A DNA stretch of 64,000 bases from Gammaproteobacteria bacterium. GTDB lineage: Bacteria; Pseudomonadota; Gammaproteobacteria; Burkholderiales; Nitrosomonadaceae. A model generated the notes under the pieces. It made no database searches. It was not told where the DNA came from and worked only from the letters and a program-made list of their open reading frames with translations. Positions 4,421 through 58,072 of the stretch are shown here, in pieces. A program made the position numbers and the translations under genes. The DNA lies in the NCBI GenBank assembly GCA_030431985.1, contig JAUIIB010000010.1, positions 1 to 64,000 of the forward strand, given 5' to 3'. The first letter of the stretch is position 1, and every line of letters starts with the position of its first letter.

Positions 4421-5727
4421 ATTCCTATGTATTTCGCATTGATTTGATCTCTTTCTTTTATATTGACTAAGTCTAGAATAACTTGTTCATTCCGTGAAGT
4501 TTTAATTAATGTAGAAATTAAATTTGAGTCTGAGATACCAACAACAACGATCTCACTTGTCTGCAACAGATTTTCATAATCCGTTGTCATTAATGAGCCG
4601 ATATGCGGGATACTGGTTTCGATAAAATTTTTATTCGCGCCGATCAGTTTCGAAATATTGACTTCTGGATCGTAAATTTTGAGCGCATATCCTTTGCCAA
4701 TTAATTTTTCAGCTAAATCCACTAATGGACTCTCGCGTAAATCATCAGTTCCTGTTTTAAAGCTAAGTCCGATAAAGCCTATTTTTTTCAATCCTGATTG
4801 CACTATTTTTTGTAAGGCAAGATCTAAATGAACGCGATTTGAAGCCAGAACTGCTTTGAGCATAGGTATGTCAACATCATTTTGTTTTGCAATATAGTTG
4901 ATAGCTCTTAAATCTTTGGGTAGACAACTGCCACCAAAAGAAAATCCCGGCTTCATATAAGCACTGGAGATGTTGAGCTGTTTGTCTTTGCATATCAGAT
5001 CCATAACGGCGTGTGGATCGACCTGCACCGATTCGCACAAGCGCGCGACTTCGTTGGCGAAAGTAATTTTCAGTGCATGAAAAATATTGCAGAAATACTT
5101 CATTGTTTCAGCGGTGGCAATATCTGTGTAAATGATTTCTGCGGGCAAACCTGAAAACAGCTGTTCAAAGATTGCTTTGGGCTTGTCAGATGAGAGTCCG
5201 GCTACTGTAAAAGGCGGTTTGTAATAATCTTTGATCGATGTGCCTTCACGTAAGAACTCAGGCTGGAAGCACACGTCAAAATCAATGCCATTTGCTTTGC
5301 CGGAGTATTTTTCCAATATGGGTATCAGAGTATTAATTACGGTTCCGGGGATAAGTGTTGATCTGAAAACGATCGTGTGGCGATCGTTCTTTGATTTAAG
5401 TGCCTCGCCCAATTGTTCCGTCAATCTTAATACGGCGGTTTGATCCTGATTACCGTTCGATTGCGAAGGGGTGCCTACACAAACGAATGACAGGTTTGTT
5501 TGTGCAATGGCCTCTTGGGTGGAAGCAGTTAGTTTTACCCGTCCTGATTCGACAACTTCCTGGACCAGTTCCGGCATACCTGCTTCAATTACCGGTGATT
5601 TCCCTGATTCCAGAAGTGCTAGTTTGGTGCTATCGATATCTACACCGATTACTTGATGCCCTTCTTTTGCAAGACATGCCAAAGATACAGCGCCTACATA
5701 ACCCAAGCCAAATACACTAATATTCAT
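4408..5727 (-). CDS. algD: GDP-mannose 6-dehydrogenase-like nucleotide-sugar dehydrogenase
   Basis: The protein is 439 aa, the usual length for AlgD. The Rossmann motif FGLGYVGAV is at the N-terminus, and the catalytic cysteine lies in GGSCLPKD at Cys268, the same position as in AlgD; UDP-glucose dehydrogenases typically read GGSCFPKD. It would oxidise an NDP-hexose (probably GDP-mannose) to the uronate with two NAD+, supplying an acidic sugar for the surface glycan. A GAGGAG ribosome-binding site precedes ATG at 5727. Other NDP-sugar dehydrogenase specificities remain possible. Confidence 0.8.
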   Translation of the reverse strand: MNISVFGLGYVGAVSLACLAKEGHQVIGVDIDSTKLALLESGKSPVIEAGMPELVQEVVESGRVKLTASTQEAIAQTNLSFVCVGTPSQSNGNQDQTAVLRLTEQLGEALKSKNDRHTIVFRSTLIPGTVINTLIPILEKYSGKANGIDFDVCFQPEFLREGTSIKDYYKPPFTVAGLSSDKPKAIFEQLFSGLPAEIIYTDIATAETMKYFCNIFHALKITFANEVARLCESVQVDPHAVMDLICKDKQLNISSAYMKPGFSFGGSCLPKDLRAINYIAKQNDVDIPMLKAVLASNRVHLDLALQKIVQSGLKKIGFIGLSFKTGTDDLRESPLVDLAEKLIGKGYALKIYDPEVNISKLIGANKNFIETSIPHIGSLMTTDYENLLQTSEIVVVGISDSNLISTLIKTSRNEQVILDLVNIKERDQINAKYIGICWQ

Positions 5728-5801
5728 TCCAACTCCTCATTATGCTGAACCTGCAAATTGCAGAAATATTTTTTAATCATTAATCTGTATACGGGTAATA
5801 T

Positions 5802-6995
5802 TTAGTTGTCTTTTTTCACGCAATCCTGGATGAGCGACTCCATCTTTTCCATACTCTTGTGCCAGGCATGATGTGACAACATACGTTCTCGGCCTGCCAC
5901 GGCGTATTTTGTTCTAAACGGCTCTGATTCCATAAGATTGATTAGCTTAGACGCATATTCTGATGGGCTGTCCGCTGTTAGAAAATGCTCGCCGGGTATG
6001 GCGTCGATGCCGCCCGCGGCAAGAGAACTTGAAACGACAGGGACCCCCATTGCCATTGCTTCAAGAATTTTGTTCTGTGTGCCACGTGCAATTTTCAGCG
6101 GTGCAACCATTGCTGCGGTTTTTAAAATGAAAGGACGAACATCTTTAACGCTGCCGGTGACAATAACACCATTAATATTTTCCAAAGCTCTGATTTGTTT
6201 GGATGGATCTGCGCCAACAATGTAGAGCTTAGCGTCCGGTATTTTTTCTTGTATCAACGGCCAGGTTTCGTGGCAGAATTCAAGCATGCATTGCTGATTC
6301 GGAAAGTAATCCATACGGCCAATAAAAGAGATACTGTGGGGTTCGTAAGCAGTGTTATCCGGTTGAAAAAAATCGGTATCAACCCCATTGGGGAACCAGT
6401 CGGTTTTTATGGTGGTGCCATAGCTGTCGAGTGTTGCAAGTTCTGCTTTAGTTGTGCAGGTTGCCAAATCAAACTTCCGTGCTAGATTTTTCTCGGAAAA
6501 TTGCATTTTTATGCCTTCCAGCCAGTATCCCCAGCTAAACGGAAACGGTTTAAAGCTCCTGTAGGTTAGCCATTTTTGTGAGTCCATATCACCATAGTCC
6601 AGTATTTTAGGAATATGTTCCACATGATCAACATATTGAGCGACTGAAGAGCAATGCACAAAAATGAAATCGAAATTTTCTTCTTTAATCCAGTCATCAA
6701 TTTGTTTTTTTAGCGATTTACTATAGAAAAACGCTAATGAAGACGGTGTTGGTGTCAACAGGTACATAATCATACGTGCCCATTGTATAGCGTCATTGAC
6801 CAGACCGATTGTGTATCGATGACAATAAGCAGTAATCCCTGCGCACTCGTCAAATTCCTGTTGCGATCTGGCCAGTGAAGCAACCCACACTTGATGCCCC
6901 TGCTCAGACAAGTATTTAATCATATTGAACGGGCGGATTTTGCCGCCGCGTTTCGGTGGATATGGAAAACGATGGCAAATATATAAAATTTTCAT
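5802..6995 (-). CDS. Exosortase A-associated GT4-type glycosyltransferase (stp1 type)
   Basis: The protein is 397 aa. The N-terminus (ILYICHRFPYPPKRGGKIRP) matches, from memory, the PEP-CTERM/XrtA-linked sugar transferase family TIGR03087. The GT-B features are FIGRMDYFPN (about 225) and a C-terminal NKILEAMAMGVPVVSS donor-binding element (about 310-325). The start shares ATGA with the end of the amidotransferase gene, so the two are translationally coupled. It likely adds a sugar during assembly of the XrtA-associated polysaccharide. Confidence 0.85.
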   Translation of the reverse strand: MKILYICHRFPYPPKRGGKIRPFNMIKYLSEQGHQVWVASLARSQQEFDECAGITAYCHRYTIGLVNDAIQWARMIMYLLTPTPSSLAFFYSKSLKKQIDDWIKEENFDFIFVHCSSVAQYVDHVEHIPKILDYGDMDSQKWLTYRSFKPFPFSWGYWLEGIKMQFSEKNLARKFDLATCTTKAELATLDSYGTTIKTDWFPNGVDTDFFQPDNTAYEPHSISFIGRMDYFPNQQCMLEFCHETWPLIQEKIPDAKLYIVGADPSKQIRALENINGVIVTGSVKDVRPFILKTAAMVAPLKIARGTQNKILEAMAMGVPVVSSSLAAGGIDAIPGEHFLTADSPSEYASKLINLMESEPFRTKYAVAGRERMLSHHAWHKSMEKMESLIQDCVKKDN

Positions 6996-8923
6996 TGAAT
7001 CAATTGTTTTAATTCGTTTTCTAAAATCTCTGGCGGCGTTTGATCAAGCATGAGTCTCGACCAGATCTCAAAATTTAGCAGACCAATGAGAATGTCAGTG
7101 TGGTCATGTTTATTGTCGCGGTGCTCATTTATCATCGTTTGCACGACAGCCGGATTAAAAACGCCGCGCGCACTGATGACTTCGGGGCTTAATAATGTTT
7201 GTAAAAGTGGCAGCAGTTCCTTTTTTATCCATGCGCCCATAGGCGCACCAAAACCGCGTTTCTTGCGATAAAGAATTTCCTGAGGCAACAAATCAGACAG
7301 GCATGATTTCAAAATGTATTTAAGCTCACCACCTTTAATTTTAAGTTCGGGCGGCATGCTGCACGCCAGTTCAACTAATTCATGATCCAATAATGGCACA
7401 CGGCATTCCAGTGAGGTTGCCATTGTCATTTTATCTGTCAGCATCAACAAATCGTCCGGTAGTTGCGTTAAACGGTCAACTTCAAACAATCGGTGTAACG
7501 CTGGAATATTTTCGCAGGTTTGAAATGCATCGAGTATGACATTATGCGCTTTCCAGTCGATTGTATCGTTTAAGAGTTGGTTTCGTAGTTGTTCGTTTGT
7601 TGCTTCAATATAAGACAAATATCGCTTTTCAAAAGGCATTTCTGCTGTCAATAGAAAAGTTTTTGCCAGACGGCTGTAATTAAGCCATTTTGAGTGGCGG
7701 TCGCTGGGTAGGAGATGTGCCAGCGGTTGTACGACATGCTTTCGAATCCATGATGGAATTTTTTGGTAGTATTGGTTGTAATACTCGCCCTGATATCGCC
7801 GGTATCCGCCAAACAATTCATCACCACCGACCCCACTGAGAATGACTGTGACATCTTTTCTGGCGAATTCAGAAACCAGATAGGTCGTAATAAATGCAGT
7901 ATCTGCGATAGGTTCATCCATGTGCCACAATAATTTGGGCAGTAAGTGAATAATATCGGGTTTCACAATGATCTCATGGTGATCTGTGCCAAACAAGTCA
8001 GAGACTTGTTTGGCATAAGGCAGCTCATTGTAGATTTGTGCCGGACCCTGCATGTCAAAGCCGATGGCATATGTTCTGACTGGATTAGAAGTGTGCTTTG
8101 CCATCAGACCGACAACAAGGCTGGAATCGATCCCACCGGACAAAAATGCACCTATGGGGACATCACTGACCATTTGTGAGGCAACAGATTGTTCTAATTG
8201 CTCTCGTATTGCCAGTTTCCACTCGCTGGCAGTATAAGAGCGTTGTTCATAATCCGGCTTCCAGTACCGCTCTATAGAGAAAGTGCCCTGTCCTGCTTTA
8301 ATATATGAAGCAACCGGCAATTTTTGTATGCCTTCAAAAATTGAATAGGGTGCCGGAACATAGCCTAATTGTAGATACAAAGCCGCTGCAGTCTTGTTCA
8401 ATGTCGGTGCTAACCCCTGAAACTGAAAAAGCGCCTTTGCTTCCGTTGCGAACAATAGGGTGTTGTCGTTCAGATGATAATAGACAGGTTTAATGCCAAG
8501 TCTGTCACGTGCAACGATGAGTAATTCTTTGTTTGCATCCCATAGTGCTAAGGCATACATGCCATTTAGGTGCTGCAAAAATGCTTCGCCATATTGTTCG
8601 TAAAGGTGAACAATAACTTCCGAATCCGAATGCGTGGAAAACTGATGTCCGAGGCTAATGAGGTGTTCTCGGAGAGATCTGAAATTATAAATTTCACCAT
8701 TACAAACAACTACAATACTTTTATCTTCATTGAATAACGGCTGATGTCCTCCGGATAAATCAATAATCGACAGGCGGCGCATACCAATAGCAACGTGGTT
8801 GGATACAAAAAGACCTTCATCATCTGGGCCGCGGTGGGCTGTGACCTGCCCCATTCGATTCAGCAACGCAGCATCGAGTTTTGTATCTGCACGTGAAGCG
8901 ATACCACCGTATATTCCACACAT
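6992..8923 (-). CDS. Asparagine-synthase-type amidotransferase (exosortase A-associated)
   Basis: The protein is 643 aa. An N-terminal class II glutaminase domain begins MCGIYGG with Cys2 as nucleophile, and RGPDDEG and CNGEIYN are conserved. A C-terminal PP-loop synthetase domain carries SGGIDSS (about 258-264). It would transfer Gln-derived amide nitrogen to an adenylated carboxylate. In XrtA loci this subfamily is part of EPS biosynthesis, where amidation of uronic acids is plausible given the neighbouring NDP-sugar dehydrogenase (inference). Housekeeping AsnB is the alternative but is less likely in this context. Confidence 0.85.
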   Translation of the reverse strand: MCGIYGGIASRADTKLDAALLNRMGQVTAHRGPDDEGLFVSNHVAIGMRRLSIIDLSGGHQPLFNEDKSIVVVCNGEIYNFRSLREHLISLGHQFSTHSDSEVIVHLYEQYGEAFLQHLNGMYALALWDANKELLIVARDRLGIKPVYYHLNDNTLLFATEAKALFQFQGLAPTLNKTAAALYLQLGYVPAPYSIFEGIQKLPVASYIKAGQGTFSIERYWKPDYEQRSYTASEWKLAIREQLEQSVASQMVSDVPIGAFLSGGIDSSLVVGLMAKHTSNPVRTYAIGFDMQGPAQIYNELPYAKQVSDLFGTDHHEIIVKPDIIHLLPKLLWHMDEPIADTAFITTYLVSEFARKDVTVILSGVGGDELFGGYRRYQGEYYNQYYQKIPSWIRKHVVQPLAHLLPSDRHSKWLNYSRLAKTFLLTAEMPFEKRYLSYIEATNEQLRNQLLNDTIDWKAHNVILDAFQTCENIPALHRLFEVDRLTQLPDDLLMLTDKMTMATSLECRVPLLDHELVELACSMPPELKIKGGELKYILKSCLSDLLPQEILYRKKRGFGAPMGAWIKKELLPLLQTLLSPEVISARGVFNPAVVQTMINEHRDNKHDHTDILIGLLNFEIWSRLMLDQTPPEILENELKQLIQ

Positions 8924-21731: not shown

Positions 21732-24332
21732 ATGACACAATTTACGATCGTAGTGCCAACACTGAATGAATCAGATAATATTGATTTGCTGTTATCCCGG
21801 ATTTTTGAATTAGATATTCCATCCAACAACTTTGAGGTCATTTTTGTTGATGACAGTTCAGATGACGGTACACGGGAAAAGATACGTGCATGGCAAGAAT
21901 GCACCAACGTACATCTAATTGAAAGAACTGGAAAGCCTGATTTAACAGCGTCGATTTTGGCGGGGACAGATGCCGCGCGCAGCAATGTTATTGTGGTCAT
22001 GGACGCCGATCTAAGTCATCCCCATGAACAGCTGGAAGCGCTGGTTACACCATTACTGCGGGGTGAATATGATGTCGTAATCGGCAGTCGTTATATCAAT
22101 GGTGGCGATACTCATAATTGGCCATTTTACAGACGTATGTTGTCTCGTATCGGTGGCTGGATGGCTCGCCCGTTTTGTGATGTAAGTGATGCGACTTCAG
22201 GTTTCTTTGCGTTTAGACGAGAACTTGCAGCGACTGTTTCTGAACAGGCGCACGGTTACAAGATATTGCTTGAGATTTTGATGGTGAATGACGGTAATCT
22301 GCGTATTAAAGAAATTCCTATTTGTTTTCGTGACCGGGCGCATGGCACCTCAAAACTTTCATTGTCTCATCAGCTAGTTTACTTGCAACGTTTAATGGCG
22401 TTAGCAGGCGGTGCAGTGTCTGTTGGTACGGCCGGCCGATTTGCGGTAGTTGGTTTGCTGGGCATGATAGTTGATGCAATTGTATTCCAGTGGGCGATTA
22501 GTCGGGACGCAGGTCTGGCATTGGCGCATTTTGTCAGTTTCTTCGTCGCTGTGAGTGTCAATTTTGGCTTAAATGCTACATGGTCGTTTCGTCAGCAAGA
22601 CATACACCAGTTGCAGTTATATCGGTTTGGACGTTACTTGATAGTTGGTGCGTTGGCACTTTTGTTGCGTGGTGGCGTGTTGGCGTTGTGTGTTTATATC
22701 TGGCACGTTCCACCATCACTCGCTATTTTTCCGGCTATCGCCGCAACAGCATTGATTAATTATTTCGGTTCGGCTTTTTATGTATTTCCAGATGAGAAGC
22801 GATTGCCGTCACTCAATATGCGTTGGCGTGTTGCTGCCGTTGGAGTGGTTCTGTTTTGCATCTTGTTGCGATTGATTTATCTCGGGCTTGCACAATTGAT
22901 TCCAGATGAAGCGTATTACTGGCAATACGCACAGCATATGGATTTAAGTTTTTATGACCATCCACCGATGGTGGCATGGTTAATTTGGCTGGGTACAGCA
23001 GTATTGGGGGACAACGAGGCTGGCGTGCGTGCGGGGGCATTCGTTTGTAATCTGATTGCGATGGGGTTTCTATATGCTTATGCGCATAATTTATATAATA
23101 AATCGACGGCATTACGCGCATTGCTACTGTTTTCGGTGTTGCCATTGGGTTTTTTGTCCGGTTTTTTGATGACACCGGATGTACCGTTAGCGGCAACTTG
23201 GATGGCCATGCTTTATTTCATGGAACGTGCATTAGTTGCCGGTCAACGTTCGGCTTGGTTGGGCGTTGGGGTTGCACTCGGTCTTGGGCTGCTTTCCAAG
23301 TATACAATTGCTTTACTAGGGCTGGCAGCGCTGTTTTTTGTACTGGCAGACAAAGCGGCTCGTCACTGGTTCAGGGATCCACGACCCTATTGGTCGGTTA
23401 TTCTGGCAATATTGATTTTTTCACCGGTTTTGATTTGGAATCATCAGCATGATTGGGCTTCTTTTGTGTTCCAATCGACTCGGCATGTGGCGAATGACAA
23501 TCAGTTCTCAGTGCACTTTTTACTGTTGTATATCATGATTCTGCTGACGCCAATTGGGTTTTTTACCGCGTTACTGGCGTTGGTAGGTAACGGTGAAAAT
23601 AATCATAAGGTTCGGCAAGATAGGGAACTGGATAAAAGAAAACGCGTTTTTGTGCAAATTGTCGCTGGCGTTCCGTTTCTGGTTTTTTTGGTATTTAGTA
23701 TGTTCGACCATCCGAAATTTCACTGGACAGGGCCTGTCTGGCTGGGAGTGTTACCTACACTCGCATGGATGATTGGTCAAACGGAAGGTACGGATAAATT
23801 CATTCAATGGTTGCAACGAGCATGGCAGCCGACTATAGCTGCGTGTTTATTGGCCTATGCCTTTACACTGCATTACGTTGTTCTGGGCATTCCTGGAGTA
23901 CCTTACAGCTGGTTTACTGAACATTATTTCTGGCGTGAAACAACTCGCGAGGTTGAATTGATTGCTGACGAGGTTCGACAACAAGCAGGACTGGAGCCAA
24001 TTATCGTGGGTATGAGCAAATGGTCTGTTGCAAGCAGTTTATATTTTTATAATCATGCCCACCGTAATCTTGATATTCGTTCCCGGGATTTATTCGGAGA
24101 CAACGGTGCAATGTACAATTTCTGGTTTCCGGCGCAGCCGCCGACTAACAGACCGATTGTTCAGATTGGTATGAAACCACGTCATATAGAACAGATTCGT
24201 CCGGGAGATAATCTGGAACAAATGCTGGTTCAGCCCGGTGAAATTCATTATCGCGTTATCCAAAACGATAGAAAACAGTTAAAACGGATTTACTATCGTA
24301 TTGCCAGAGGGTTCAAAGGCACTTCTGTCTAA
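21732..24332 (+). CDS. Three-domain glycosyltransferase: GT2 (DPM-like) + GtrA + GT39 (PMT/ArnT-like)
   Basis: The protein is 866 aa. Residues about 1-225 form a dolichyl-phosphate-mannose-synthase-like GT2 domain (VVPTLNESDNI, VDDSSDDGT, MDADLSHP, GSRYINGG). Residues about 235-355 form a GtrA-like four-helix membrane domain (FAVVGLLGMIVDAIVF). From about 365 onward is a GT39/PMT domain with many helices and the acidic loop motif PDEAYYWQY then YDHPPMVAWL (about 394-420). It could build a polyprenyl-phosphate sugar, flip it and transfer it to an acceptor, all in one chain (inference). Acceptor unknown. Confidence 0.88.
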   Translation: MTQFTIVVPTLNESDNIDLLLSRIFELDIPSNNFEVIFVDDSSDDGTREKIRAWQECTNVHLIERTGKPDLTASILAGTDAARSNVIVVMDADLSHPHEQLEALVTPLLRGEYDVVIGSRYINGGDTHNWPFYRRMLSRIGGWMARPFCDVSDATSGFFAFRRELAATVSEQAHGYKILLEILMVNDGNLRIKEIPICFRDRAHGTSKLSLSHQLVYLQRLMALAGGAVSVGTAGRFAVVGLLGMIVDAIVFQWAISRDAGLALAHFVSFFVAVSVNFGLNATWSFRQQDIHQLQLYRFGRYLIVGALALLLRGGVLALCVYIWHVPPSLAIFPAIAATALINYFGSAFYVFPDEKRLPSLNMRWRVAAVGVVLFCILLRLIYLGLAQLIPDEAYYWQYAQHMDLSFYDHPPMVAWLIWLGTAVLGDNEAGVRAGAFVCNLIAMGFLYAYAHNLYNKSTALRALLLFSVLPLGFLSGFLMTPDVPLAATWMAMLYFMERALVAGQRSAWLGVGVALGLGLLSKYTIALLGLAALFFVLADKAARHWFRDPRPYWSVILAILIFSPVLIWNHQHDWASFVFQSTRHVANDNQFSVHFLLLYIMILLTPIGFFTALLALVGNGENNHKVRQDRELDKRKRVFVQIVAGVPFLVFLVFSMFDHPKFHWTGPVWLGVLPTLAWMIGQTEGTDKFIQWLQRAWQPTIAACLLAYAFTLHYVVLGIPGVPYSWFTEHYFWRETTREVELIADEVRQQAGLEPIIVGMSKWSVASSLYFYNHAHRNLDIRSRDLFGDNGAMYNFWFPAQPPTNRPIVQIGMKPRHIEQIRPGDNLEQMLVQPGEIHYRVIQNDRKQLKRIYYRIARGFKGTSV

Positions 24333-24431: not shown

Positions 24432-25520
24432 TTACAGGTAACGTCGAATCGTTTTATATATTAAATGGGGAAGTAGAATATAAAGCGGCATTCGGATTAA
24501 ATGACTGCGAAGGTATAGCAGTCGTCGGGCCCAGGATGCGGACCGTAAAGAGTGATCAGGATGTTGTGGAAACAAGGCAAGTGGAACCAGTCGGTGCATA
24601 ATACGATGTTTTAACTTGCCAGGTTTTGAATTTAGGCGGGTGACTGTTTTTTCCGGGATTGATGTACTGAAAATGAGCTGACTAAAATATAAACCATAAA
24701 ATAAGATGTGTGATATTTTTAATTGATTGGCGCGATCTGTTAACTGTATCCAGAAGTCTTCATCTTGTTGGCTGAAATGAGTCATGAGGTCATGCAAATC
24801 CAGCAGATCTCTCAGATCATTTGCAATTTCATTATTCTGAAACAGATTTATTGCACAGTGAATGACCATATCAACTGGGCTCAATAGTTTTATTTTCGGA
24901 TGCCCGGCGGCGGGTATGGCTGTATCAAAAAGTAGTGCTGTGTCTATTTTTAATTGAGTAGTTACGGGTATAAGCGCATGATGGATATCCACCTCGGTTT
25001 CACGTTCAGTATGAACAAGAGGAGGAATTTCGTGGCTCCAGGAACGGTAATAGTGTTCATCGTAAGCTGAAATCGGGCGATGTTTCCAGCCTTTTATCAT
25101 TAGTAATGACTCAATATCTGCCAAATCCGCTTCTCGAACCAGCAAGTCAAGATCTACTGACAATCGTCCTTTAGCATAAGGTAGATCAATCAATTTATAG
25201 GCGATACCTTTAAGGGCAATAATGTGTGTGTCGAAATCTTCTAATACCCATAGAATCCTGTTCAATTCCCAGCTACATAGCTGCTGCAGTTTTTCAGCTT
25301 GTACAAATCCTGAGATGAGTTGGTTAGCAACTCTTGGGGGTACTGTGTCCCAAAGGTGGTGTTCTTTTAGCAATAAAGTCAGGCGACCGAGTAGCTTTAC
25401 GCGCCTAGCCTGTCTGATAAGCAGTTCCCATTCGATGTCGGTGTATTGAACGAGGCATGAGGGGGTGGTTATTGCTTGCAGCAATAGCTGGTTGTGTCGG
25501 GGTAATTCAAGTTTCATCAA
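24432..25520 (-). CDS. Nucleotidyltransferase-fold protein (NTP_transf_5), HPr-rel-A cassette
   Basis: The protein is 362 aa. The nucleotidyltransferase core shows GIAYKL, then GRLSVDLDLLV (118-128, Asp123 and Asp125) and EVDIHHAL (Asp178), the three expected metal-binding acids. The family, NTP_transf_5 (PF14907), also occurs in some lasso-peptide and XrtA-type gene sets beside an HprK-like kinase. Its start overlaps the kinase gene end by 14 bp. The C-terminal 100 residues are basic and partly hydrophobic. It converges on the GT2-GtrA-GT39 gene with a 99-bp gap. Substrate unknown. Confidence 0.8.
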   Translation of the reverse strand: MMKLELPRHNQLLLQAITTPSCLVQYTDIEWELLIRQARRVKLLGRLTLLLKEHHLWDTVPPRVANQLISGFVQAEKLQQLCSWELNRILWVLEDFDTHIIALKGIAYKLIDLPYAKGRLSVDLDLLVREADLADIESLLMIKGWKHRPISAYDEHYYRSWSHEIPPLVHTERETEVDIHHALIPVTTQLKIDTALLFDTAIPAAGHPKIKLLSPVDMVIHCAINLFQNNEIANDLRDLLDLHDLMTHFSQQDEDFWIQLTDRANQLKISHILFYGLYFSQLIFSTSIPEKTVTRLNSKPGKLKHRIMHRLVPLALFPQHPDHSLRSASWARRLLYLRSHLIRMPLYILLPHLIYKTIRRYL

Positions 25521-26412
25521 TCAATCGCTGCAGAGTTGCCATGACATCTTCAAAATCGGAGTAAACAAGTTTATAGCAGTTGCAAGTGCGAATGAGATAT
25601 GCAACTGCCTGAAACCCTTTTGCGCCGAGTACCTCGTAATTAAATGCATTGCTTGCCAGTAACATAAATGCTTCTGAATCAGAAATGGTTTCAATTTTGG
25701 TAGTAGAGTCGGCGATCCATTTTGGAAAAAAAATCCATTTAGCTTTTGCTGTTAGTGTTGACTGTTGAATACTTTCTTCGGGAGGGCAGGCATGCGCAAC
25801 CGTCCCTTTTTGCGTATTGGGTATCGATTTTCCGATAGTAATTTCAGGCAGGTAATTTCGAATAACGGCAATGGACTCATTTTTAAGTGGCATCAAACGG
25901 GGGATAGGGTAAAAAGTACCTTGTTGTGGATCCATCAAACCGAATTCATCAGAAAATAAACGAAAACCTCGGTAGGATAAAACTGTACAAAGTGTTGTTT
26001 TGCCGCTACCTGGCCAGGCAGGAAATAAAATGACGTGATTATTTTTCTCGACGACGGCTGAATGAAGCAACAACAAATGGCTGACTCGTACCGCTATGGC
26101 TAGATTAATGCCCCATTCGAGAGCGGCGAGGGCTTGCGCTTGTGGAAAACTCTCAAATGGTGATTGTCCATCGAGTAAAAAGCGTACGTTCTTTTCAAAT
26201 GGATTTTTATTGGAACGTTCCGTTACGATACGAACGTGAAATTCTGCAATTTCATTCTGTGCTGTTCGATAATGTCGGTACAGCTGATAGAGTTGCTCTG
26301 CAAGTGGTTTGTATGTGGTTTGAATGCAGACATTGAAGGGGCCGATGGCGACTCTTAATCCCTGATTTAGCAACAGATGAAATTCCTTAAACGGAATCTG
26401 ATTAACCATCAT
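25507..26412 (-). CDS. HprK-related kinase (HPr-rel-A system)
   Basis: The protein is 301 aa. The P-loop PAWPGSGKTT is at residues 131-140, and LLLHSAVVE lies just before it as in HPr kinase. LFSDEFGLMD (152-161) provides the acidic metal-binding residues. There is no N-terminal HPrK regulatory domain. The closest family I know is the HprK-related kinase A group found with a PqqD-like protein and a nucleotidyltransferase. Homologous kinases phosphorylate the C-terminal serine of some lasso precursors. It overlaps both neighbours (11 and 14 bp), so the three genes are translationally coupled. Confidence 0.82.
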   Translation of the reverse strand: MMVNQIPFKEFHLLLNQGLRVAIGPFNVCIQTTYKPLAEQLYQLYRHYRTAQNEIAEFHVRIVTERSNKNPFEKNVRFLLDGQSPFESFPQAQALAALEWGINLAIAVRVSHLLLLHSAVVEKNNHVILFPAWPGSGKTTLCTVLSYRGFRLFSDEFGLMDPQQGTFYPIPRLMPLKNESIAVIRNYLPEITIGKSIPNTQKGTVAHACPPEESIQQSTLTAKAKWIFFPKWIADSTTKIETISDSEAFMLLASNAFNYEVLGAKGFQAVAYLIRTCNCYKLVYSDFEDVMATLQRLIDET

Positions 26413-26701
26413 GTGGATTGCCCTGATTTCTTTTTTTTACTAAGCCTAAGGTTTCAAAATGATGAAGAATCTTTTCAATATTCTGTGTGAATTCTTTGTC
26501 CGGGTTTTGTTGAAATTGCTTTGCAAGGACAGTACAAATTTGTTCTATTGTGGCCGGATGTTGACTGAGAAAAATCAGGATTTGTATGCTGATTTGATTA
26601 AAAAAATGGGTCTTACCGGAATCAGGCTGAAAGACAGTGTATTCATCACCCCAGTCTTCAATCAGCAATGTGTGAAAATGTTCGGTATGCCAATACATCA
26701 T
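26402..26701 (-). CDS. PqqD-family protein, HPr-rel-A system
   Basis: The protein is 99 aa. It has the winged-helix PqqD layout: a beta-rich N-terminus (LLIEDWGDEYTVFQPDSGKTH) then three helices (NQISIQILIFL, TIEQICTVLAKQF, IEKILHHFETLGLVKK). PqqD proteins bind the leader of a precursor peptide and present it to modifying enzymes. It is the first gene of a three-gene overlapping cassette, with about 230 bp upstream that probably holds the promoter. No leader peptide gene is obvious in that gap on either strand. Confidence 0.8.
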   Translation of the reverse strand: MMYWHTEHFHTLLIEDWGDEYTVFQPDSGKTHFFNQISIQILIFLSQHPATIEQICTVLAKQFQQNPDKEFTQNIEKILHHFETLGLVKKRNQGNPHDG

Positions 26702-26932
26702 TACTGTTAATAATTTTAGGGCAAATATTAGTTTGCGGGATGAACTAAATTAGACGAACTTACATTTTAATCGGTTTAGGCCGTCAAGCCTAGACTCCAG
26801 GATGCGACGATTTTACATGTTTACTGTATTGGTTAGATGGAGACAAGGATTGCAGATTGAAGAATAAAGCCTAACTGTCCGTATGGAAGCGCACCGCGAG
26901 GTTGTTATCTGAAAATTTACAGCGTGTATTTG

Positions 26933-27409
26933 CTATAAAGTCGTTGAGTTTATAGTAATACCGGTTTTATCCATGATCGACGAATATGCCACTGCTGAAA
27001 TCATAATGCCACCCTGTGCATGGCATGCGTCCAACTGCTCTAATTTTTTCTTATCAGCGCTTGCGGCAATAGGGTTTATTTTAGGATCTTGAATAAGTGT
27101 GGCCTGCGGTGCGGCTCCAAGATCATAAGTGTCGCCTGATATTTGCTGCTGTGCCGCATCGGGAAAAACGCATAATAACTGTGGGCCGTTACTGGTATCC
27201 ATAAAAACAGCAGTATCTATATTGGCGGCCTCTCCCGTAATATTGCTTGTACGGGCAAGTGCGGCACCACTGTACAATGTCATGACAACCGGTATTGTCG
27301 CTGCACCTTTTAACAGCTTTCTTCTTGTGTGCTGCGGTGTTTCTAATGTAGAAACGGTCGATTCCCGGTTACTGGTTTCTGTTGTTTTCTGTGGTTTTTC
27401 TGCAGTCAT
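26933..27409 (-). CDS. Tat-exported protein of unknown function, 158 aa
   Basis: Residues 1-52 form a long twin-arginine signal: a hydrophilic Thr/Glu-rich n-region, RRKLLKG (29-35), a hydrophobic stretch (AATIPVVMTLYSGAA) and an A-L-A cleavage site at about 50-52. The mature part is about 105 residues with two cysteines (LLCVFP, DACHAQ). I cannot assign a family. It lies on the same strand 231 bp upstream of the PqqD/HprK/nucleotidyltransferase cassette, so it could be the cassette's target or partner (inference). ATG 27409 is the start. Confidence 0.7.
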   Translation of the reverse strand: MTAEKPQKTTETSNRESTVSTLETPQHTRRKLLKGAATIPVVMTLYSGAALARTSNITGEAANIDTAVFMDTSNGPQLLCVFPDAAQQQISGDTYDLGAAPQATLIQDPKINPIAASADKKKLEQLDACHAQGGIMISAVAYSSIMDKTGITINSTTL

Positions 27410-27621
27410 ACTTGATTGATCTCTAAGGTAGAAGCGTTTTTATTATTATAATGCCGATACATTATCGTTTCATTGATATTTAAGCAAATTTTGGGCCAGA
27501 ATGATGGGGGTATATTTTCATCAATTAATACAATCAATTATAAGATGCTAAAAAAATTGAATAGAAAGAAGAAAAGATAAGTGTAAGATTTTCCGACTTC
27601 TGCCAGGGGATTTTTTTCCGT

Positions 27622-56455: not shown

Positions 56456-58072
56456 TTAAGGATTCTGCGTAACAGACCACTGTTCGATATTCCACAATGG
56501 AGATGTTCCGTGTCCAAATACTTTATGAGCAAACCCGTTTGCCCGATCTCGCACGCCATAGACGTGTTTAAGATAGACCAAATAATTATACGGTGGATTT
56601 TTTATTAGTTCTGTTTGTAGTTTCTGGTAAATGGTTTGCTGTTCCTGGGCATTTAGAGTTGCGCGACCTTGCTCAAGCAACTTATCTACCTCAGGGTTGT
56701 TATACCCGCTAAAATTACTGCCGTGCTTGGCATTACTGCTCAAAAAATACGGGTATACGTCTTCATCGGGTTCCCCAGGTAGACCGCCACCAAGGATAAA
56801 TGCAGGGACTTGTTTAATTTTAAAGGTTGAATAATCGCGAACTTGGACGGGTGCATCTATACCTGCTTTTCGTAACTGTTGTGAGAGCAGTACAGCTAAA
56901 TCCTGACGTATCGGATCATTGGCCATGACAAAAATTGGAAAAGACATTTTTTGACCATTTTTCTGCATTAACCCGTCTTGCCCAATTTCCCATCCTGCAT
57001 CGGCTAACAGCGTGCGTGATAGCTCGAGATTGTTATTACAAGATCCCAGTTCTGGTTTGGAAACTGTATTAAACTGAAGAGGTCCATGGGCAGGATAGCC
57101 ATAGCCCATCAACGCTCCTTGAACTAAAGCGTTACGGTCCGTAGCACATTGAATGGCACGCCTGATTCGTACATCTTGAAATAACTTTTCACGAAAGTTA
57201 AACATCATAACCAAATAATCTGCAGTATCAACTACTTCAGTACGAATGCCATCTTCAGGTTTGATTGCAGCCAATTGTTTTGGATTCAATCGAGCAACAT
57301 CGATTTCTCCCTTCTTTAGCTGTAATAAACGAACATTTGGATCGGGCAAGAATTTATAAATCACTCGCTGGAGCTTAGGTGCGCCATCATAAAAATCCTT
57401 ATTTGCTTCTAAAATAAGATATTCTCCCCGACGGTATTCTTTCAACTTAAAAGGTCCCGTTCCAACTGGGCGGGCATTATTAAACTCATCAGTGTTGAAG
57501 TCTTTGCCATCTAGCACATGTTTTGGAATAAGCCCCAAAGTCAGCTTGCTTAGTAGTGATGACAATGGTTTGGTAAGATTGATGCGTACCGTTAAGGGAT
57601 CTACTATTTCGATGGATTCTATATAAAGAAAATCTTTCCTTTTATTGCTATGGTTCTTAGGGTTAAGGATAGTTTCCAGTGTAAATTGCACATCTTCTGC
57701 AGTAAAAGGAGCTCCATCGTGCCAACGAATATTAGGGCGCAGCGATATGGTATAAGTCCTTCCATCCTGATCAATTTGCCAGTCGTCTGCCATATCGCCG
57801 ACTATTATATTGTTGCGGTCACGTTTGAATAAACCGCGAAATATAGCAATGTCGGAATCTGCATGCTGGTGCCCCGCGACTGGATTTAACCATTCAGGTT
57901 CACTGGCGCGTGCGACAATCAGTGTGCCTTGGCTTTGATACTTGTTGCTTTTTTCGTAATCATTAGAAGATACATTTGGACTTTCTGTTGAATTCTGTGA
58001 AGTGTTTTGTATGTCGCACGCAATCAGACTAATTACTGAAAACGCAAGTATTATAATAGAGAGCTGTTTCAT
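56456..58072 (-). CDS. Peptide/nickel-type solute-binding lipoprotein (SBP_bac_5)
   Basis: The protein is 538 aa. The N-terminal lipobox LIAC puts the lipidated Cys at 19, followed by a low-complexity Asn/Ser linker (about 20-48). The family-5 signature is in GTLIVARASEPEWLNP, IRWHDGAPFTAEDVQFTLE and VGTGPFKLKEYRRGEY. It captures the substrate in the periplasm for the DppBCDF-like transporter. Coupling to the upstream TonB receptor suggests a siderophore-like or metallophore peptide rather than a nutrient peptide (inference). Confidence 0.88.
   Translation of the reverse strand: MKQLSIIILAFSVISLIACDIQNTSQNSTESPNVSSNDYEKSNKYQSQGTLIVARASEPEWLNPVAGHQHADSDIAIFRGLFKRDRNNIIVGDMADDWQIDQDGRTYTISLRPNIRWHDGAPFTAEDVQFTLETILNPKNHSNKRKDFLYIESIEIVDPLTVRINLTKPLSSLLSKLTLGLIPKHVLDGKDFNTDEFNNARPVGTGPFKLKEYRRGEYLILEANKDFYDGAPKLQRVIYKFLPDPNVRLLQLKKGEIDVARLNPKQLAAIKPEDGIRTEVVDTADYLVMMFNFREKLFQDVRIRRAIQCATDRNALVQGALMGYGYPAHGPLQFNTVSKPELGSCNNNLELSRTLLADAGWEIGQDGLMQKNGQKMSFPIFVMANDPIRQDLAVLLSQQLRKAGIDAPVQVRDYSTFKIKQVPAFILGGGLPGEPDEDVYPYFLSSNAKHGSNFSGYNNPEVDKLLEQGRATLNAQEQQTIYQKLQTELIKNPPYNYLVYLKHVYGVRDRANGFAHKVFGHGTSPLWNIEQWSVTQNP

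Follow-up and report, generated by a model that had tools for sequence, protein, structure and literature searches.

A Tat-like exported protein as near-constant partner of a PqqD-like/HprK-related kinase/NTP_transf_5 gene set in a Nitrosomonadaceae genome and across wider bacteria

Lasso-peptide gene clusters are characterized by an asparagine-synthase-like lasso cyclase with a leader protease nearby. Here we describe a locus that encodes related activities in a different setting. It lies at positions 24432 to 27409 of a 64,000-nucleotide stretch of a Nitrosomonadaceae genome (assembly GCA_030431985.1, contig JAUIIB010000010.1, positions 1 to 64,000; 'the window' below refers to this whole stretch), and it encodes a protein with a putative twin-arginine translocation (Tat) signal, followed by a PqqD-like protein, an HprK-related kinase and an NTP_transf_5 protein. 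Genome comparison showed that the Tat-like protein is a nearly constant partner of the other three, that the enzymes have kept their catalytic residues and that, in the lineage of the window, the set co-occurs with exosortase A and is preceded by a predicted promoter of the PEP-CTERM/PrsR type.

Among the closest described counterparts are the tailoring sets of certain lasso-peptide clusters (PadeK, ThcoK, PsmK, PsmN). The initial annotation of the locus had drawn the same parallel, including the action of the kinase on the peptide C-terminus, and this agrees with PMC9266682. There, the kinase of a lasso cluster phosphorylates the Ser at the C-terminus. The attachment of one to two hexoses to the resulting phospho-Ser requires PsmN, which carries the annotation of a nucleotidyltransferase, and may pass through a nucleotidylated intermediate. 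PqqD-like proteins in turn bind leader peptides, PadeB1 at ~5 nM (PMC5067487). The likeness thus consists of a PqqD-like leader binder, a kinase for a C-terminal Ser and a later-acting annotated nucleotidyltransferase. The locus differs in that neither a lasso cyclase nor a leader peptidase was found among the five flanking proteins scanned against NCBIfam and Pfam, which bears out what had been noted at the outset, and in that the client would be a 158-residue Tat-like exported protein. In addition, the fourth residue of the kinase motif may differ: the lasso kinase motif is given as H-K-D-D in PMC9266682, and the kinase of the window has H117, K138, D155 and, directly after D155, a Glu (58/58).

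The enzymes are not nameless. The kinase and the adjoining PqqD-like protein score over the cut-offs of the 'HPr-rel-A system' of NCBIfam and have an NTP_transf_5 gene next to them, a feature of that system which was taken from the loci examined here. The NCBIfam names cover enzymes, whereas the Tat-like partner and its scanned relatives are claimed by no family. The early suggestion of an undescribed modification system lapses in so far as the enzymes already bear names. A literature search, with most subscription papers beyond its reach, returned no paper on HPr-rel-A, HprK-related kinase, TIGR04352 or TIGR04353, and no title or abstract start about such a system when PqqD, exosortase, NTP_transf_5, twin-arginine or Nitrosomonas was added. 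As far as this search goes, client and regulation appear to be new, within what would be a variant of leader-guided modification. The likeness to the SynChlorMet cassette (ScmC/ScmD) is weak, considering that the PqqD-like protein (26.3 bits) and the kinase (16.4 bits) score far less than the 100 and 125 bits that its models require.

The four genes are transcribed from the minus strand in the following order:

26933 to 27409, minus strand: Tat-like exported protein of 158 residues, proposed dedicated client/substrate (open reading frame and comparative genomics; in no family)
26402 to 26701, minus strand: PqqD-like peptide chaperone of 99 residues, TIGR04353 (NCBIfam profile and alignment)
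25507 to 26412, minus strand: HprK-related kinase A of 301 residues, TIGR04352, with H117/K138/D155/E156 (NCBIfam profile; PEPCK/HprK fold model)
24432 to 25520, minus strand: NTP_transf_5 nucleotidyltransferase-like protein of 362 residues, PF14907, with D123/D125/D178 (Pfam profile)

As initially annotated, the three enzyme genes overlap, with 11 and 14 shared bases, and a gap of 231 bases separates them from the Tat-like gene; the last open reading frame (ORF) starts with TTG, the next codon being ATG. All three proteins clearly exceed the cut-offs of their families: the PqqD-like protein reaches 62.8 bits with PqqD_rel (cut-off 35; labelled by NCBIfam as part of the HPr-rel-A system), the kinase 332.4 bits with HprK_rel_A (cut-off 200) and the nucleotidyltransferase 160.5 bits with PF14907 (cut-off 31.2).

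Within the genus of the window, the partnership appeared exact. A profile search recovered HprK_rel_A over the cut-off in 12 out of 37 genomes, and homologues of the window protein were present in precisely those 12. That two sets of 12 out of 37 genomes coincide by chance has a probability of 5e-10, uncorrected for kinship. Homologues without the cassette, named beforehand as the observation that would speak against the pairing, were found in none of the 25 cassette-less genomes, several of which are incomplete assemblies.

To cover wider bacteria, a pattern scan requiring the P-loop and SDE motifs was used, and the best 80 of 116 confirmed candidate loci were analyzed. The order PqqD - kinase - NTP_transf_5 recurred in most of these 80; the profiles failed to detect PqqD in 11 loci and NTP_transf_5 in one (L115). 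Three loci had no room at the contig edge (L100, L114, L115), and in 76 of the remaining 77 a Tat-like gene lay beside the cassette. Hence the cassettes do not sit next to some other conserved small peptide, as had been considered, but adjoin the same kind of protein. In 69 loci the signal was recovered directly upstream with a hidden Markov model (HMM), 65 times at E<0.01 and four times at 0.08 to 1.3, although the HMM was trained on 54 signals of these same 80 loci and the figures are therefore not independent. Five more loci (L056, L083, L107, L122, L129) failed the distance rule, the PqqD ORF having been called too long, while the signal gene lies downstream in L081 and the RR signal was recognized by eye in L085. 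Only L065 lacked a Tat-like neighbour. In L048 the gene order is rearranged with the four genes still together.

An independent test was provided by 398 phylum-sampled genomes, 61 of which carry the kinase over the cut-off. A Tat-like protein was present in 60 of the 61 (54 linked, 6 unlinked), the remaining one (G247) having its kinase at a contig end. With the HMM from the earlier loci, a signal gene was found beside the kinase at E<0.01 in 39 out of 58 newly fetched loci (L135-L192). Ten more were weaker or were recognized by eye (L137, L138, L139, L141, L145, L146, L164, L173, L175, L179). Also counted as linked were L151, with a divergent signal gene, the genomes G000 (that of the window), G006 and G055, and G231, where the signal is on the contig that holds the N-terminus of the kinase. 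Neither PqqD nor a Tat gene adjoins the kinase in the genomes G129, G141, G082, G184 and G326; their Tat gene is found elsewhere, in all but G141 with PqqD adjoining it. In G272 the cassette retains PqqD, and the Tat gene lies ~160 kb off with no PqqD beside it. On these grounds, genome comparison shows the Tat-like protein to be a near-constant fourth component of the set, even when unlinked. The initial proposal of this protein as candidate substrate is strongly supported as far as the partnership is concerned (12/12 in the genus, 60/61 in the wider sample).

The signal itself points in the same direction. At E<=1e-4, signal profile A5 matched 33 of the 398 genomes, of which 32 carry the kinase (Fisher p 4e-29, uncorrected for kinship), and it thereby reaches only 32 of the 61 carriers. 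The profile was built from 18 of 127 signals, with rows supplied by four of its 32 carriers (G000, G168, G113, G070); the one match in a kinase-negative genome (G241) has an E of 7.9e-5. With a limit of E<=0.1, a search of 26 chosen genomes gave a match below 1e-6 in 13 of them, in each case a single one and at the cassette, and the best value in six cassette-less genomes of the genus was 9e-4. The cassette signal was weak or gave no match in several carriers (G055, G079, G394, G374, G404, G428, G105). The client of body family C, described below, was absent from all 12 kinase-negative genomes searched for it, 10 of which have exosortase A, and likewise from carrier G360, which has a different body.

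Two regions of the client stand out:

27251 to 27325, minus strand: conserved signal region (RRKLLKGAATIPVVMTLYSGAALAR; residues 29-53), proposed to serve for export and for binding of the PqqD-like protein (profile and alignment; the binding is inferred)
26975 to 26998, minus strand: conserved C-terminal motif, residues 138-145 (SAVAYSSI), in which Ser144 (codon 26978-26980) is the candidate acceptor

The window protein had no match over the cut-off in NCBIfam or Pfam, and the same holds for the relatives scanned (3 against NCBIfam, 10 against Pfam). Among 127 loci the client bodies split into families without BLAST links at E 1e-3: A (48 members, with the pattern C-x-PSG-SGN-S...SPGYW), B (30 members), C (22 members, including the Sphingomonas loci; 9 were used in alignment A8), the group of the window's genus (D, 15 members once genus rows were added) and singletons. 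Most bodies extend ~60-240 residues past the signal and are conserved inside the families. Common to all families is the signal consensus RRRLLK--A--PVxxTLxSxxALA, with an RR that was invariant across 18 aligned signals. In the last 50 residues the motif [ST]x(1-3)[WFYL]xS[LFIV] occurred in 30/30 members of B, 22/22 of C and 15/15 of D, against 1.4, 0.9 and 0.9 in shuffled sequences; in this and in the promoter controls below, shuffling preserved composition and not dinucleotides. The expectation of Ser/Thr near the C-terminus was thus borne out for the internal Ser144, conserved in three of the four body families, and failed for the NSTTL end, which among the 15 members of group D is present solely in the window protein. 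Two TatC genes were found in the genome of the window (C18:45083-45736 and C20:25457-26137; L247, L248), given which export of the client by Tat is possible. A search with the client sequence against solved structures returned viral fusion-protein chains (E 0.01), which were dismissed as weak. In L081 two signal-bearing ORFs lie downstream of a single cassette (5668-7104), the first weak (E 0.07) and the second strong (E 2e-10).

Conservation of the catalytic residues was judged on profile-found sequences, since the scan for the 80 loci itself demanded the P-loop and SDE motifs. In the kinase, H117 and K138 were each conserved in 57/57 sequences plus one gap, and D155 and E156 in 58/58. The three conserved acids that had been noticed in the nucleotidyltransferase were likewise recovered (D123 and D125 37/37, D178 36/36 plus one gap). 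The structure model of the kinase (mean predicted local distance difference test, pLDDT, 96.6) matched phosphoenolpyruvate carboxykinases (PEPCKs) over the whole chain (Z 16.0, root mean square deviation 4.9, 282 residues aligned) and HPr kinase chains more weakly (Foldseek E 1e-3 and above); 45 of 70 kinases were used in the structure alignment (A6). Judged by this model, the kinase is a P-loop phosphotransferase of the HprK/PEPCK fold. Sequence searches against solved structures gave at best E 0.11 (a PEPCK) for the kinase, with HPr kinases at 0.5, and no match below E 0.3 for the nucleotidyltransferase; for the PqqD-like protein they returned designed-repeat chains, taken as spurious.

The predicted promoter of the locus recalls another known system, the PEP-CTERM/exosortase A system with its PrsK-PrsR-sigma-54 control. 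According to PMC1569441 (2006), proteobacterial PEP-CTERM genes are preceded by a 17-nt motif ending in TTTACA, a spacer of 32-92 nt and a sigma-54 motif, and PrsR was proposed as binder of the 17-nt motif. Upstream of the Tat-like gene we found:

27483 to 27498, minus strand: sigma-54 type -24/-12 site TGGCCCAAAATTTGCT (matrix scan)
27582 to 27599, minus strand: box of the type TGTCG-N6-TTTACA, here AAGTCGGAAAATCTTACA (ending in CTTACA), 83 nt before the sigma-54 site

Of the 127 loci, 48 had a sigma-54 site with a score of 10 or more out of 12 in front of the Tat gene, compared with 1.9 in shuffled sequences and 3 on the opposite strand, and a motif search before those sites yielded TGTCG-N6-TTTACA. 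The predicted sites of the window fit the composite layout of the PrsR/sigma-54 PEP-CTERM cis-element. The pair of box and sigma-54 site occurred in 11 of the 12 genus genomes (not in G021) and, by body family, in 13/15 of D, 32/41 of A, 0/26 of B, 0/22 of C and 6/20 of the others; L053-L055, from the genomes of L042, L047 and L044, were left out of the pair count and included in the count over 127 loci. The box matrix was derived from 43 upstream regions that were later counted with it, so that the independent finds are those before a PepA gene and before a 676-residue ORF. In G351 the same element precedes both the cassette and a gene for PepA, a flocculation-associated PEP-CTERM protein (191 bits, cut-off 80). 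In Aquincola, the transcription of a pepA gene is reported to be RpoN-dependent and its overexpression to rescue floc formation (PMC9850573). The second find, in the genome of the window (C26; L253 1422-3597), is a box and sigma-54 site ~18 kb from exosortase A, before an ORF of 676 residues that had no NCBIfam or Pfam match and is possibly another member of the same regulon. A scan for the pair at loose limits returned nine against 0.8 in shuffles; four had box scores of at least 16 and the rest, including one at position 56625 of the window, were weak. A sigma-70 scan stayed near chance level.

The link to the exosortase-A/PrsR regulon, which had been overlooked initially, is further suggested by co-occurrence. 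In the genus, exosortase A (TIGR03109) exceeded the cut-off in 11 of 37 genomes, a twelfth (G017) having the gene in two frames, and those 12 are the 12 cassette genomes. The split gene of G017 (C16:19081-19849) represents either decay or a sequencing error. The two loci lie far apart, as in G006 (3.12 vs 0.73 Mb) and G035 (2.52 vs 0.76 Mb). Among the 398 genomes, exosortase A was found in 25 of the 61 kinase carriers vs 10 of the 337 others (p 2e-15, uncorrected); the 25 comprise every carrier of the window's class (13) and every carrier of families f63 and f96 (12), and in 7 of the 25 cassette and exosortase A are at most 60 kb apart on one contig. Moreover, genes of the XrtA system adjoin some betaproteobacterial cassette loci: the TIGR03027 export protein (L074, L096), PrsT (L050, L107) and PrsR (L050). 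The window protein differs from PEP-CTERM proteins in that it lacks the C-terminal PEP-TM-basic signal; its C-terminus reads GITINSTTL and had no match with the PEP-CTERM models.

We propose that the four genes form a single-client protein-modification module, a reading that we consider somewhat probable. The lasso-peptide kinase/nucleotidyltransferase pair and the PqqD-like leader binders offer a precedent. The PqqD-like protein would bind the conserved signal region as leader-recognition element and bring the client to the PEPCK/HprK-fold kinase, which would phosphorylate a conserved Ser, most likely Ser144 here or, alternatively, the Ser just past the signal. The NTP_transf_5 protein would then add a nucleotide or a sugar to that phosphate, like PsmK/PsmN in pseudomycoidin, and the tagged client would be exported by Tat and act in the extracellular matrix beside PEP-CTERM proteins. 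Given the kept catalytic residues and the modelled kinase fold, phosphoryl transfer followed by nucleotidyl or glycosyl transfer is plausible; the modification, its site and its donor we infer by analogy.

A number of observations weigh against this proposal or narrow it. Acceptor and donor are guesses, and the C-terminal Ser motif occurs in only 4 of the 48 members of family A (vs 2.2 in shuffles), so the acceptor cannot be identical in all families. The structure model of the client is poor (mean pLDDT 52.7), for which reason no fold is claimed and the folded state of the cargo assumed initially counts as hypothetical. The Tat-signal model TIGR01409 gave 13.2 bits, below its cut-off of 16.7, and the label 'Tat' of the initial description therefore rests on RRxLLK, the hydrophobic stretch, AxA and the TatC genes. 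The co-occurrence figures are uncorrected for phylogeny. Kinase and nucleotidyltransferase stand apart from PqqD and Tat in five genomes, and in G272 the Tat gene does so alone; the kinase could thus have another substrate. In G105 a gene outside the cassette outscores the cassette gene with the signal profile (E 6e-4 vs 0.07). With respect to the matrix, none of the 36 carriers outside the group of 25 has exosortase A over the cut-off and 7 of them have any exosortase, while exosortase A is missing from the cassette genome G041 and present in G051, which lacks the cassette, so the link is not universal. Among the Tat genes of the 398-genome sample, the promoter pair preceded 3 of the 15 in genomes with exosortase A and 0 of the 26 in the rest. 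Considering these numbers, the link of the module to exosortase and matrix appears lineage-specific.

Alternatively, kinase and NTP_transf_5 protein might supply exopolysaccharide synthesis with a sugar phosphate or an activated small molecule, with the PqqD-like and Tat-like proteins as a co-regulated but separate two-gene unit. This would account for the kinase without PqqD/Tat in 5 of 61 genomes, for its position beside a glycosyltransferase (L154) and nucleotide-sugar genes (L166; both seen by eye), for a fold closest to PEPCK, a small-molecule enzyme, and for the association with exosortase and exopolysaccharide. We nevertheless regard it as unlikely: all five genomes retain the Tat protein at another place, next to PqqD in four of them, the three-gene order recurs throughout most of the best 80 loci and PqqD-like proteins are known leader binders (PMC5067487). 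The fact that the signal region is the client part common to all body families, with 13 of 26 genomes having a single strong match to the signal that is located at the cassette each time, would suit a PqqD-like protein that acts as dedicated Tat chaperone and merely delays export, phosphorylation then regulating export without tagging a product. As this leaves the nucleotidyltransferase and the Ser conserved in three body families unexplained, we give it little credence.

Given a conserved leader with diverse bodies, and a PqqD-like protein with tailoring enzymes like those of lasso clusters, one could also think of a natural-product cluster for a ribosomally synthesized and post-translationally modified peptide, in which the Tat-like protein is the leader-bearing precursor and its C-terminal part the secreted bioactive peptide. 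The flanking proteins scanned include no cyclase or leader peptidase, most bodies are ~60-240 residues long after the signal and conserved within families, and the promoter is of the sigma-54/PEP-CTERM type, all of which makes this improbable. Finally, the 231-base gap in the window might suggest chance neighbours, with a Tat gene unrelated to the cassette; against this, 32 of the 33 genomes with a signal match in the 398-genome sample carry the kinase and the genes co-occur unlinked in 6, which contradicts it, and we give it practically no chance.

Some further observations concern the surroundings and outlying loci. The five flanking proteins scanned (2 on the convergent side, 3 upstream) comprise MltG, a glycosyltransferase fusion and a CusA-type efflux set. 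The fusion, convergent with the cassette (21732-24332), is an 866-residue chain combining a family-2 glycosyltransferase, a GtrA-type membrane domain and a PMT_2 domain, and it had no partner among the clustered loci. Scans of the window against Rfam (gathering threshold) and for tRNAs gave no match, and neither did PHROGs with three proteins; PADLOC (four proteins) gave a single weak match of the kinase with mad8 (E 0.0027), read as a shared P-loop. L065 (4774-5613), from a Phycisphaeraceae metagenome-assembled genome, is the only non-Pseudomonadota locus among the 80; its upstream neighbour is transposase-like by eye, and the locus may thus be transferred or a binning error. On a Methylosinus plasmid an HprK-like gene lies beside CusA (L134, 5374-6528), in a locus where PqqD, the Tat signal and NTP_transf_5 all gave no match.

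As for the biological role, it is conceivable, though doubtful at present, that a phosphodiester-linked sugar or nucleotide on one Tat-exported protein serves as anchor or primer of the exosortase-A-associated exopolysaccharide, with lineage-specific client bodies sharing one conserved Tat/leader signal. If this is true, the floc or biofilm matrix would contain protein-glycan linkages of a new kind. With the proposed module, the widespread, named but unexplained HPr-rel-A set gains a concrete client and a physiological setting. PqqD-type leader-guided modification, known from peptide natural products, would here act on a Tat-exported protein, and the predicted sigma-54/PEP-CTERM-type promoter together with the co-occurrence of exosortase would tie the module to the formation of the floc and biofilm matrix.

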